A stretch of DNA of 32,812 nt, taken from the NCBI GenBank assembly GCA_018064985.1, contig JAGHUE010000166.1:1-32812 (forward strand), read 5' to 3'. The notes below the pieces were generated by a model. That model was not told the origin of the DNA and ran no database searches. It saw nothing but the letters and a program-made list of their open reading frames with translations. Below, piece after piece: positions 5,115-32,387 of this stretch; the first letter of the stretch is position 1; the number at the start of each line of letters is the position of its first letter. A program made the translations under genes and the position numbers. Source of the stretch: Candidatus Colicola faecequi (GTDB lineage: Bacteria; Bacteroidota; Bacteroidia; Bacteroidales; Paludibacteraceae).

Positions 5115-5131
5115 TACGAACGTTCGAGAAT

Positions 5132-5203
5132 GCTACGCTAATCCTACGCTAATCCTACGCTAATTCTACGCTATTCATATGCTGTAAGTCTTATGCAAGT
5201 CGC
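5132..5203. repeat. 11-bp tandem array A (cctacgctaat) abutting an AGTCGC anchor
   Basis: gctacgctaat|cctacgctaat|cctacgctaat|tctacgctatt|catatgctgta|agtcttatgca|agtcgc, continuous 11-bp register. Confidence 0.9.
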
Positions 5204-16084: not shown

Positions 16085-17800
16085 TTACCAGGTGAAATTA
16101 TACGTTAAATTGATGCCCTCCTGCTTTGGGACATATCGGCAAACGCCACCGGAGCAATTATAACCGGCTCGCGTCTTGGTATAGCCGAGCATCACACGAT
16201 GAGCATTTTTCTGATAGGTAGCCCCAATGGTGTAATAATGCTGATTGGTAGCCTCTTCGGTCGCACCGATATTGTACATCCATTGGGCAGAAAGCATGAG
16301 CTGTTTCCAAAGGCTGACCTCATAGAGCGCGAAGATCCATTGGCCCTCGTCCTGCTTGGTAAAGAGATATTGAAGTTCGCCGCGCATCTGAACGTTTTTG
16401 TTGAGCGCGTACTTAGCTTCCATGACCGCAATACCCGAACGGATGAGATCACCGTGGCCTTCCACAACAGCCTTATTATAAGTCTGATACATGAGCATTG
16501 CACCAATGTACCATTCTTTGTTGATCTTCTTATTGAGCTCAAGGTTGACGTCGGTATAATACGTCTCTTTGCCCGCGAGCCAGGTGTTGTCTTCCTGCAA
16601 ACCACGGACATGCGAAGCATTGAGCTTGAGGGTGGTTCCGTATTTGCCGCCCATCTTGGTACCGCGCTTCCAGGTGTAACGGATTTCGCCCTGGAAAGCC
16701 CATTCGCCAGCCATCTGCGTAGCATACGGATAGAGGGCCGCAAGCGCATAGGTGTGCTGATTGGCGAAAGCGGGAAGGTGGTTGAGGAATCCGGAAGTGC
16801 CACGAAGCTGACGGTCGGAACGGAAGAACATATTCTCCGAACGCTTGACCTGGCCGATGACGGACATACCTTTCTGCGAATAGCTGAGGGAGGCAAGGAG
16901 CGTCTGACCGGGCTTGAAGCTGTAGGCATTGTCAGCACATGGATCGTTGGCCTTGTAAGCATATTCAAGGAGCGCGTTCCACCCTTTCATCTGGAACTTC
17001 GCGCGCACGTCGCCCGCTCCAACCCATTCGGGCACATTGTACATGTAGTTGTGCCCGTCAATGATGGTCTGAATGGTATCAAACGCCTCGTATTTGCTTA
17101 CGTAACTGCCTCCGAGGGTAAGGTTAGCGCCTGCCTGCTGCATGCGTTCGGACCACTCGGAAACCTGAAGCTCGAGATTGGCTCCAAGTGCAGCATCTTG
17201 CGTATAATTCCAACCCCAAGCGTGATCATCGTAGCAATTCCAATAGCGACGCTGCTTACCGCCAAGGAGCTCGAAGCGGATGCCTTTGTAGGGCGAAAGC
17301 TCGATTTTGCCGCCACGAAGCGAATTGTCTATGCCGAGAGAGCGCTCTTCGTAGAGGCGGAGGATGAGTCCACTGCCAAACTGTCCGTAGACATCACCAA
17401 CAGTGATTTTGCCCCAACGGAACTGGCTGCTGACGTGAAGATGGCCGACGCCATAACCGCGGAAACCGGATTCATAACCCAGCATCGGCCATTCCATGAG
17501 TTCACCACGGAGGGCAGCTTCCAGCCCATTAAACCCGAGTTTGTTCTCCTTGCTGTGATCCCAACGGAGACCTAGATCAAGGTAGGTGTTGCTCAGATGG
17601 TCGATTTTTGCCCAATCGCCTCGGCGATGGGTGCGGTCGGCTTCCACAGATTTCGTAGGAAAGAGACTTTCATGCTGAAGACTACCCACTACATAAACAG
17701 TATCCCCTGCCCAAGAAAGCAGAGGAAACAGCAGCAATGCTCCAAGAAGAAGCCATTGCTTATGCGCGAAAATGTAAGATTTTGTCATAAAACAGTTCAA
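16085..17800 (-). CDS. Outer-membrane beta-barrel protein, DUF6029-like
   Basis: Signal peptide; GFRGYGVGHLHVSSQFRWGKITVGDVYGQFGSGLILRLYEERSLGIDNSLRGGKI; alternating beta-strands through LTYNFTW end. Confidence 0.65.
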   Translation of the reverse strand: MNCFMTKSYIFAHKQWLLLGALLLFPLLSWAGDTVYVVGSLQHESLFPTKSVEADRTHRRGDWAKIDHLSNTYLDLGLRWDHSKENKLGFNGLEAALRGELMEWPMLGYESGFRGYGVGHLHVSSQFRWGKITVGDVYGQFGSGLILRLYEERSLGIDNSLRGGKIELSPYKGIRFELLGGKQRRYWNCYDDHAWGWNYTQDAALGANLELQVSEWSERMQQAGANLTLGGSYVSKYEAFDTIQTIIDGHNYMYNVPEWVGAGDVRAKFQMKGWNALLEYAYKANDPCADNAYSFKPGQTLLASLSYSQKGMSVIGQVKRSENMFFRSDRQLRGTSGFLNHLPAFANQHTYALAALYPYATQMAGEWAFQGEIRYTWKRGTKMGGKYGTTLKLNASHVRGLQEDNTWLAGKETYYTDVNLELNKKINKEWYIGAMLMYQTYNKAVVEGHGDLIRSGIAVMEAKYALNKNVQMRGELQYLFTKQDEGQWIFALYEVSLWKQLMLSAQWMYNIGATEEATNQHYYTIGATYQKNAHRVMLGYTKTRAGYNCSGGVCRYVPKQEGINLTYNFTW

Positions 17801-17805
17801 GCAAA

Positions 17806-17860
17806 AGTCGCATGGAAGTCCACTCTAAGTCCACTGTACGTCCACTGTACGTCCACACGA
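17806..17860. repeat. 11-bp tandem array B (agtccactgta) with AGTCGC anchor
   Basis: agtcgcatgga|agtccactcta|agtccactgta|cgtccactgta|cgtccacacga. Confidence 0.9.
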
Positions 17861-17875
17861 CGAGATGCGCGAAAA

Positions 17876-18352
17876 TCACAGATTTTTGATCAGCTCATAG
17901 AGCTCATCTTCCGCACCGTCGGTGTATCCGGCATGGTTGTGAACCACGTTGCCATTACCATCGAGAACGAAGACATGGGGCACCATTTGAACGTTCATAG
18001 CGCGCTTGAAATCGCCATTCGGATCGAGAAGCACGTCGTATTCCCAGCCGAAACCGTCAACGAGCGGCTTCACCTTATTGGCATCCTGCGCCTGGTCGAT
18101 AGAGACAATGATGACCTTCACTCCAGTCTCATCCTGCCAGTCGGCATAGAGCTCGTGGATGGCTTTGAGTTCGCGCAAACAAGGTTTGCACCAGGTAGCC
18201 CAGAAGGAAATAATCATCGGCTTGCCGCCATTGGAAAGTTCAGCAGTGTTGACAGACTTACCATCGATGTCCTGAAGCGTAACGCTCGGAAGCTCGGCTT
18301 TTGCGGTAAGAACAGCCGCAATAGCCATCATTATCAAAAGAATCTTTTTCAT
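17876..18352 (-). CDS. TlpA-like periplasmic thioredoxin
   Basis: Signal peptide MKKILLIMMAIAAVLTAKA; ISFWATWCKPCLRELKAIHELYADW; VQMVPHVFVLDGNGNVV (cis-Pro). Confidence 0.9.
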   Translation of the reverse strand: MKKILLIMMAIAAVLTAKAELPSVTLQDIDGKSVNTAELSNGGKPMIISFWATWCKPCLRELKAIHELYADWQDETGVKVIIVSIDQAQDANKVKPLVDGFGWEYDVLLDPNGDFKRAMNVQMVPHVFVLDGNGNVVHNHAGYTDGAEDELYELIKNL

Positions 18353-25919: not shown

Positions 25920-27146
25920 TCAATGCCGCTTCTGCTCGGCAACACGCTGTATAATGGTAGGCATAATCGTATTACCGGTAGCGTTGAGCAGCGTAGCCGG
26001 CATATCTACAATGGTAGAAATTACCATCAGAAGACCAACAACCGACATGTCGGCACCCAGTACCGAACAAGTGAACAGCTCGCCCGCACCTGCGCCAACC
26101 GGTACAGCACCGACAATAACAGAGGCTATTAAACCCACACCAATAATCAGCAATGCCGCCTGCGGTGTACAGATATCCTGCCCCATCAGAAGCATCACGA
26201 ATGCTGTTTTCATAATGCTGCATATGATCGACCCGAGTTTGAAAAGCTGCGTTCCAAGCGGAATGAGCGATTCAGCCATCTCCTGGGAGGCTCCTAAGTC
26301 CTGCGCACTTCGGATATTGGTAGGCATCGTAGCACTTGAAGATAGTGTTGAAATTGCCATCAGCGAAGGTGCAAGCAAGGCGCGAGGATAGCTCTTCATA
26401 CCTTTCCAGCCGATTGCCATGAATGTCAGCAACGGGTTGACAATAAAATACATCAGCGCACCAATCGCGAGATACAGCGCCATGAAGCGCCCGTAACCTT
26501 TCAGCAGTTCACCCGTTCCTCCGGCCATCATGCCAGCAAAATAGCAGCCCAAACCGATTGGCGCCAGTTTCATCAGGCAGTCCATCATTTTCATAACGAG
26601 CTCGCTGCCCTGCTGCAGCACATGTGCCACGCGATCGGTCGCCATTTGCGAGGCAGCATAGCCCATCAACAATGCTACGACCATCAGCGGAAGCACATGA
26701 CCGATTGAAAGAAGGTCCTGAAAATCAGTCACGGACAACGCCTTGACAATCAGCTCGCCCATCGGAATTTCTCCTTCCGCAGCTGGAGCAGAACTGCCAT
26801 TGAGCGCATCCGTCAACGGGGGATACAGGCACACACCAGCATACGTGATAGCAGAAACGAGCGCCATCACGAATACAACAACTATACCCGACGCAGCCAA
26901 CGTGCGGCCGAGAAGTTTGCGTTGTGACAGATTGCACACCGACGATGCTACAGAGAAAAGCACCATCGGAACAATCAGCACGAACAATGTGTTCATGAAA
27001 ATATCGCCTATCGGCTTCAGATAATCAGCCGATTCCGGCCACAAACCGCCTACCGTACCGCCTATTGCGATACTTACCAGCAGAATGATCGTACTCTTAT
27101 AGTTTTTCCAAATTTCATGCATACTCTTTAGTGTTATAAAGTCCAT
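25920..27146 (-). CDS. Dicarboxylate/amino acid:cation symporter (DAACS family, SstT-like)
   Basis: GDIFMNTLFVLIVPMVLFSVASSV; SLMAISTLSSSATMPTNI; multiple TM segments. Confidence 0.88.
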   Translation of the reverse strand: MDFITLKSMHEIWKNYKSTIILLVSIAIGGTVGGLWPESADYLKPIGDIFMNTLFVLIVPMVLFSVASSVCNLSQRKLLGRTLAASGIVVVFVMALVSAITYAGVCLYPPLTDALNGSSAPAAEGEIPMGELIVKALSVTDFQDLLSIGHVLPLMVVALLMGYAASQMATDRVAHVLQQGSELVMKMMDCLMKLAPIGLGCYFAGMMAGGTGELLKGYGRFMALYLAIGALMYFIVNPLLTFMAIGWKGMKSYPRALLAPSLMAISTLSSSATMPTNIRSAQDLGASQEMAESLIPLGTQLFKLGSIICSIMKTAFVMLLMGQDICTPQAALLIIGVGLIASVIVGAVPVGAGAGELFTCSVLGADMSVVGLLMVISTIVDMPATLLNATGNTIMPTIIQRVAEQKRH

Positions 27147-27205: not shown

Positions 27206-27291
27206 ATTTGAACGGACTTTTCACAATTAATTGTCCACCGAAAGCAAGCCATCACCGGGAATCACCCGATGAACAGCCACGCAATATCAAT

Positions 27292-27385
27292 GCGACTTCC
27301 ATGAGACTTCCATGAGACTTCCATGAGACTTTCATGAGACTCCCATTGGTACTACATTAGTACTACATTGGTACTACTGGCGAAG
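27292..27385. repeat. 11-bp tandem array C, two unit families in one register, with GCGACT anchor
   Basis: gcgact|tccatgagact x3|ttcatgagact|cccattggtac|tacattagtac|tacattggtac|tactggcgaag. Confidence 0.95.
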
Positions 27386-27410
27386 TACATGCGTCCTTCG
27401 TCAAAACCGC

Positions 27411-28694
27411 TTACTGCTCCTCTCCCGAGCCGAGCTCCGAAATCATCCAGCCGATAATCGGACGGATGGCACGCGTATCCGGATCTTCATCGAAGCTGAA
27501 AAGGCCGGCATGAAGCGTCAGCTGACGCTCCCTTCCTCCCAGTTCCACATACTTAAGAGGCGCAAGGCTCCGCGAGCAAGCCAGCAGATTGATATCCGCA
27601 TCGGTAAATTCATTCCATTTCACCCGAGCCTCCTCGGGAACATCGCCATAATACGTGAAATATGGATAGAATGCCGTTATCCAGCCGTTGATCTTATCTT
27701 TAGCCGAGGGGAAACCGCAACCGGCAAAGAAATATTCCTCCATCATCTCATCTCGCTGCGCCTGCGTCATGGTGTCGAGATCCACCTCAAACAACTCAGC
27801 CACTTCTTCTATCGTAATAGCCGGCATTGTTTTGTACATCGACCGCCAAAAATCCGGGTCGACATTGCCTTCGGCCGATTCGGCAATCTTTTGAAGCACA
27901 GGTTCCAGCTCGTCTATCCACCAGTCCAGCCCGTAGCGGCGGAGGCGGTTGGCCTTCTCACATATGCGACGCCAATCGGCAGCCGTACCTTCCAGGTAGA
28001 TATCGGGAATACCGCAACCTTCTTCTATTACGTACGAGAAATAGCTCTGCAGGGCCGACATGATGCCTATCTGCGAAGCCACAAGTGCAGTATTACCGGT
28101 CGTACTGAAATCAGCAATGAGCGTCTGAGCAATACTGTCTTTGGTCCAGGCGGAAATGCTGTCAGTAAACTGCGGGAAATAAGGTTCCCAGGCATAGTAA
28201 GCAGAATCTATCAGCCCCGGTTCGCAAAAGATGCGGAGCTCTTTCTGCCCCTCATGTTCTACAAAGAGATGGCGCAGTTCCTCTGCATAATACTTCACGT
28301 GCAAAGCAAACCCCTGCTCTATCGTTAGCCATACCACATCCGGATTGATCACCATCGGATGATGGTTGGCATACGCATAGCGCACACCGTCGATCAGAGG
28401 ATGCTCGCTCCACGTAACACTGTCAGGAAGCGGGCTGTGGCATACTATCCGGCTTCTGCCGCTCATGGTCTGATAGAGGCTATATTCCGAATAGAGATAA
28501 TGCTCCAGCAAAGACTGTACCTCGTATCTGTCCAGCGTATCCACCGGTGCAGGCCTATCCATCAGATGAATCACCCGAACCTCAGAAACCTGCTCACTAT
28601 CGGCAGCGGTTTGCTGATTTGCCGACTGGTTAGCCTGCTTATGGCAAGAGCAGAACAAAAGCAACAATGTAGCGATGTACAGAAGTTTACGCAT
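27411..28694 (-). CDS. DUF4419-like lipoprotein
   Basis: Lipobox LLLFCSC; YANHHPMVINPDVVWLTIEQGFALHV; YGDVPEEARVKWNEFTDADINLLACSRSLAPL. Confidence 0.75.
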   Translation of the reverse strand: MRKLLYIATLLLLFCSCHKQANQSANQQTAADSEQVSEVRVIHLMDRPAPVDTLDRYEVQSLLEHYLYSEYSLYQTMSGRSRIVCHSPLPDSVTWSEHPLIDGVRYAYANHHPMVINPDVVWLTIEQGFALHVKYYAEELRHLFVEHEGQKELRIFCEPGLIDSAYYAWEPYFPQFTDSISAWTKDSIAQTLIADFSTTGNTALVASQIGIMSALQSYFSYVIEEGCGIPDIYLEGTAADWRRICEKANRLRRYGLDWWIDELEPVLQKIAESAEGNVDPDFWRSMYKTMPAITIEEVAELFEVDLDTMTQAQRDEMMEEYFFAGCGFPSAKDKINGWITAFYPYFTYYGDVPEEARVKWNEFTDADINLLACSRSLAPLKYVELGGRERQLTLHAGLFSFDEDPDTRAIRPIIGWMISELGSGEEQ

Positions 28695-32286: not shown

Positions 32287-32336
32287 GCGACATGCATTGG
32301 GTTCTTATTGGGTTATTAATGGGTTGATATTGGGTT
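32287..32336. repeat. 11-bp tandem array D (NNNattgggtt) with GCGAC anchor
   Basis: gcgaca|tgcattgggtt|cttattgggtt|attaatgggtt|gatattgggtt. Confidence 0.9.
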
Positions 32337-32387
32337 ATTGCCGTATTTGCGTATGTTTCCTGTAGGACCTACTGCTTGTCCTTCGAT

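Follow-up and report, generated by a model that had tools for sequence, protein, structure and literature searches.

The window, by which we mean the whole 32,812-nt stretch analysed here, comes from the draft genome of Candidatus Colicola faecequi (G000, 89% complete) and carries, between two minus-strand genes, an array of short tandem repeats that we call array C (27286–27378). Upstream of it lies a DUF4419 gene (27411..28694; Pfam PF14388, E 4e-63) with its stop at 27411, and downstream a sodium:dicarboxylate symporter gene of the SDF family (25920..27122; PF00375) with its start at 27122. Sequence reading combined with a TAnnTTTG scan places a predicted Bacteroidetes-type promoter of the symporter gene, TTTG-N20-TAATTTTG, at 27206 to 27175 of the minus strand, the TAnnTTTG motif lying 52 bp from the start. 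Array C thus sits upstream of this predicted promoter, between it and the end of the DUF4419 gene, and the original prediction had this gene context right. The symporter gene is syntenic with groES–groEL in two congeners (G129 and G185), whereas none of the 17 congeners examined yielded the DUF4419 gene. A search with the symporter gave no relative, and one with GroEL brought up Bacteroidales MAGs, Paludibacter-like ones matching best.

Read on the minus strand, array C joins two families of 11-bp units without a phase slip. Block 2 (27341..27378), with TACYAATGTAG-type units of family D, comes first on this strand, and block 1 (27286..27340) follows in the same register with family C units, namely GTCTCATGAAA, three copies of GTCTCATGGAA and GTCGCATTGAT; the junction reads TACCAAT-GGGA-GTCTCAT. 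Tandem Repeats Finder reports the array as two adjoining rows of period 11, one at 27290–27346 (5.2 copies, 91% matches) and the other at 27344–27377 (3.1 copies). Lag-11 identity over 27290–27378 amounts to 64 of 78 positions, the maximum among 20,000 shuffles being 38; the other lags below 34 gave 9–25 matches, with the exception of the multiples 22 (51) and 33 (34). The sequence is therefore as originally described, two 11-mer families in perfect register with no slip where the unit changes, and only the extent needs correction: the array begins slightly earlier, a fifth, degenerate unit (27286–27296) lengthening block 1. Calling the units unrelated-looking was also fair, as the consensus units of the two blocks agree at 5 of 11 positions as they stand in the array and at 6 of 11 in the best other register, so that sequence identity does not show C and D units to descend from one ancestor.

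Used as a query against its own genome, array C matched 20 places. The main-family unit in this genome is composed of a 7-bp core and a 4-bp spacer, the length of the latter being fixed and its letters largely variable; most units consist of GTC, four further core letters and four spacer letters. The main core families are A (GTCYTAC), B (GTCYAC, usually with T next), C (GTCNCAT) and D (TACCAAT), with the minor families E and F occurring elsewhere in the genome. Arrays are made of blocks of different core families that share one register, and families mix within them. Cores of the same family follow one another at 11 bp in 117 cases, at 22 bp in 10 and at 8 bp in one, and never at 10 or 12 bp. 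Family switches within 33 bp keep the register in 30 of 35 cases, the five exceptions all being A–B junctions, and the junctions involving D, anchored at TAC, do so in 16 of 16. Since 30 of the 35 close switches and all D junctions are in register, the C/D switch in array C obeys a genome-wide rule that family changes preserve the register. Like other D junctions, it falls at the boundary between core and spacer; this, together with the independent occurrence of both families at many other loci, leaves the idea that one unit turned into the other at this locus unsupported.

Comparison of spacers shows how the units of an array relate to each other. At positions 8/9, adjacent units match in 39/29% (family A), 43/50% (B) and 57/38% (C) of cases, and units of other loci match in 28/25%, 52/40% and 54/46%, respectively. 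Core positions 5–7 match at 74–100% across loci, a figure that is partly a matter of construction because families were assigned by core letters, and positions 1–3 carry no weight, the chains having been picked by GTC. The informative part of this test is that neighbours in families A, B and C do not share spacers. Recent local duplication, which would leave neighbours with the same spacer letters, is therefore not favoured. D units are almost invariant within arrays, which may be recent expansions.

Intergenic arrays of period 11 are common in this genome. In 448 kb, a sample picked in part by its matches to array C, we counted 38 such arrays, with 12 of period 8, six of period 7 and none of period 10, 12 or 13; the 222 kb of the genome that were not picked in this way hold 10, eight and one arrays of period 11, 8 and 7, respectively. 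Intergenic location applies to 42 of 46 period-11 arrays, in a sample of which about 10% is intergenic. Three or more GTC in succession occur 50 times at 11-bp spacing and 0–8 times at other spacings, except for 22 bp (15). Across the whole genome, a pattern of three GTC at 11-bp steps, which also required A at unit position 10, found 171 matches, against one for the same pattern written backwards. Extrapolating from GTC chains in the sample not picked by matches, rather than from a count, we estimate array C to be one of roughly a hundred intergenic 11-bp arrays in the genome. Because several draft contigs end in or near D arrays (L013:5421-5504, L015:17443-17520 and L021:1-55), array lengths and numbers are probably underestimated.

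The window itself contains three sister arrays. Tandem Repeats Finder detected one of family F (CTACGCTAATC; 5121..5185, plus strand) and one of family E (ATTGGGTTATT; 32292..32339, no strand assigned), and a third array on the plus strand (17805..17865) has a single C unit, after which B units continue in the same register (GTCGCATGGAA GTCCACTCTAA GTCCACTGTAC ...). The last is bracketed by a 12-bp direct repeat, ATTTTCGCGCAT (17750–17880), with one copy inside the start of the DUF6029 gene; bracketing of this kind is not general among arrays.

G129 and G185 are the nearest congeners, 78–79% identical to G000 in groES–groEL DNA and syntenic over much of the window. Upstream of the symporter gene, both carry a different gene and no array, and their thioredoxin–DUF6029 junction, the site of the 17805–17865 array in the window, is a short gap with no array. 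About 190 bp at the asparaginase/response-regulator locus, which in G000 form the composite array, are missing from both. Both have 11-bp arrays of their own elsewhere, built of other units. Arrays thus turn over fast between species, with gain and loss at orthologous positions. From sequence comparison, some of them appear to fall on synteny breakpoints between relatives (L283/L289, L286/L290 and 27286–27411 of the window).

At the level of the genus, 60 stretches (987 kb) yielded intergenic arrays chiefly of period 7 (42), 11 (22), 9 (11) and 8 (9), those of period 10 (3), 12 (1) and 13 (1) being rare. Among other Bacteroidota, 80 loci yielded 12 arrays of period 7 and one of period 11. Period 11 thus characterises this genus and is most pronounced in some of its species. 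From one species to the next the unit letters are exchanged and the step is kept, so that the period outlives the sequence. A motif-driven search for GTC returned 995 matches across the genus versus 310 for the control. As a genus-wide rule, the GTC anchor was rejected, because only 3 of 22 unbiased period-11 arrays of congeners have it, below the shuffled expectation; it belongs to G000 and some relatives, and only the period is general. In one congener (G009), 88 matches to the reversed control pattern were found, and 11-bp arrays anchored by CTG are probably abundant in that genome.

The closest comparison is offered by G064 and G016, in which the flanks of orthologous arrays are 94.5–97.6% identical. 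Here, 7 of 10 unit differences, a small number, fall on positions 4 and 11, and in one pair of arrays the lengths are exactly 11 bp, or one unit, apart. These two genomes also share a stereotyped three-block composite, (CATCTCCCTGT)n - GTC[AG]CCCATAG x5-7 - GTCAAAGCAAC - (TCTCACAATCC)n, with all units of 11 bp, located mostly between divergent genes (L276-L283 and L285-L291). G185, in turn, has two copies of an array of three CATCTAGCTTA units followed by the inverted array of two (L203:5361-5452 and L234:19190-19277), an arrangement that could form a long hairpin.

Our analyses support the view that in this genome it is the 11-bp period, and not the unit sequence, that is held constant. Two alternatives had been put forward in the original prediction, that the period itself is selected or that one unit evolved into the other, and the former proves the better one, given an 11-bp step that is constant genome-wide and a period that alone is shared genus-wide. 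We tentatively propose, with a probability of about 0.45, that the arrays are putative helically phased protein-binding arrays of 7 + 4 bp in which families are exchanged in register. Their tandem sites would be occupied at every helical turn by one or more DNA-binding proteins, each in contact with the next, which would account for the retention of the core letters and of the 11-bp step and for the freedom of the spacer letters. A change of family along an array might arise when two arrays recombine, or one converts the other, across core letters that they share, or when a whole core is substituted, and out-of-step products would be lost because the contacts between neighbours are broken. The effect would probably be to regulate or insulate the adjacent promoter or 3′ end locally. 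This proposal draws on the likeness to tandem protein sites that lies in the combination of a kept core, a free spacer, an exact step and families interchangeable in register. An extended version, which we consider unlikely, is a modular cis-code: composite arrays would gather several DNA-binding proteins, or a single protein with several cores, in a fixed 11-bp register, the succession of core families at each locus would specify the assembly, and each species would use new core letters at the same step. Speaking against binding arrays are the lack of a strict strand or gene-orientation rule, the fast turnover of arrays between species and the fact that 19 of the 41 array–gene pairs have no recognisable promoter motif. 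All of this also fits a weakly constrained class of repeats.

Such a class is the chief rival to the protein-binding proposal, and we regard it as a real possibility, if short of a probable one. In this scenario, the arrays are neutral and satellite-like: replication slippage or another duplication step creates the 11-bp repeats, ectopic conversion spreads and homogenises them, and intergenic DNA is the only place where they are tolerated; the register at switches is preserved because units become aligned when arrays recombine. Intergenic short tandem repeats of 5–11 nt are indeed a known class, the rapid gain and loss of arrays is well accommodated, the near-invariance of D units within arrays is what recent expansion predicts, and both the one-unit length difference between G064 and G016 and the species-specific unit families agree with it. 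What this scenario does not readily explain is that core letters are kept and spacers are not, with adjacent spacers in families A, B and C resembling one another as distant ones do, or that periods of 10, 12 and 13 bp are nearly absent, as slippage has no cause to avoid them.

Other explanations account for less. Regular spacing of GTC puts a UC dinucleotide at every 11-nt step of a transcript, and arrays could accordingly act at the RNA level, for instance by offering Rho YC sites at even intervals or by serving as binding sites in 5′ untranslated regions; some indeed lie downstream of the promoter and ahead of the start codon (L279 and L287; 4 of 41 scanned pairs), and array C (27279–27390) folds as RNA better than shuffles on both strands (z −3.5 and −2.9). 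Nevertheless, we think this improbable, because the array strand is inconsistent relative to flanking genes (14 same, 7 opposite, with arrays in divergent and convergent regions too), the other arrays tested fold no better than shuffles, and an Rfam search gave no match up to E 1. Rho-utilisation sites were discarded for the inconsistent strand, and a stable RNA fold was dropped as a general feature, array C alone standing above its shuffles. Spread by mobile elements, as element ends or as REP/MITE-like copies, would explain why units recur at many loci and would suit the stereotyped composite of G064 and G016 and the duplicated array with its inverted counterpart in G185. Yet target-site duplications are not in excess, direct repeats of at least 8 bp flanking 2.4% of arrays and 2.4% of random positions alike; the copies in G000 have no flanks in common, the order and number of blocks vary, and a search of 2.9 million viral contigs with three unit patterns returned no match, so that we hold this origin to be highly unlikely. 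Intrinsically curved DNA, selected for phased bends, is the least credible explanation: although 11 bp is close to the helical repeat, the wedge-model bend of 21 GTC arrays lies on average at the 37th percentile of column-permuted controls (mean percentile 0.37), in a rough test, and the curvature suggested in the original prediction gained no support.

Seen against described repeats, the arrays are a variant within a known class of intergenic short tandem repeats. Repeats of this class have units of 5–11 nt, and polymerase slippage was proposed for the heptamers among them (Mrazek et al., as presented in PMC4679880). Examples include the STRR of cyanobacteria and the TAACTGA repeats of Beggiatoaceae, which are intergenic, dispersed heptamers of unsettled function (PMC4679880). 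As in these long simple sequence and heptamer repeats, our arrays have short tandem units, are intergenic, occupy many loci and are scattered between related species (PMC4679880). With their 11-bp units they fall within the 5–11 nt of long simple sequence repeats and, like these, exceed chance length, and congeners of G000 carry many 7-bp arrays, as in the heptamer class. Unlike the heptamer repeats, the arrays described here are mainly of period 11 rather than 7, with several families per genome in one register; unlike strict simple sequence repeats, their units are not identical copies, since cores are conserved, spacers vary and families mix. No excess of target-site duplications of the kind expected of a MITE or insertion element, no bend above expectation and no match to a curated Rfam family was found for the arrays.

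Closer parallels to the proposed protein-binding arrays come from bacterial operators. SARP regulators bind heptamers separated by 4-bp spacers, the ‘classical 11-bp’ sites, and cooperative binding has been shown for one of them, PimR (PMC5930380). The arrays similarly combine a 7-bp core with a 4-bp spacer in direct repeats at an 11-bp step; unlike SARP operators, they comprise hundreds of units and several core families and have no fixed place relative to promoters. A cognate BTAD (SARP) gene was not found, PF03704 having no match in G000 (89% complete) or in five congeners. In operators of the OmpR/PhoB family, such as the pho box, tandem direct repeats of about 11 bp are bound by winged-helix regulators, and a typical regulator of this kind has far fewer sites than there are arrays here. 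The arrays share with them the tandem direct repeats of about 11 bp, and one gene of this type stands beside the richest array of G000: the sole OmpR/PhoB-type gene detected there (RprY-like, below cut-off; L009:7306-8049) adjoins the richest composite array (L009:7014-7219). The other response-regulator loci that we examined in the genus mostly have no array. The recognition-helix region of the regulator, GRSLSVY(V/I)NHLRH(L/M)L, is nearly identical in G000, G129 and G185. As this helix region has hardly changed in relatives whose units differ, in departure from what OmpR/PhoB operators would lead one to expect, the RprY-like regulator is a weak lead as the binder.

The role of intergenic short tandem repeats in bacteria is not settled, and the arrays described here make the question of slippage versus selection testable. 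They unite several families per register, a core and a spacer that evolve differently, and sister species with new letters at the same step; by virtue of these three features, a selected period becomes separable from a period that is a by-product of slippage.

Besides the 11-bp arrays, G000 contains a second class of repeats, namely near-palindromic TGCA arrays of 8-bp period (for example, TATGCAGTTTTGCAGATTTGCAGAACTGCATA), which occur at several loci (L022:9089-9120, L179:1285-1320, L024:6541-6576, L014:2286-2316 and L182:2036-2069).
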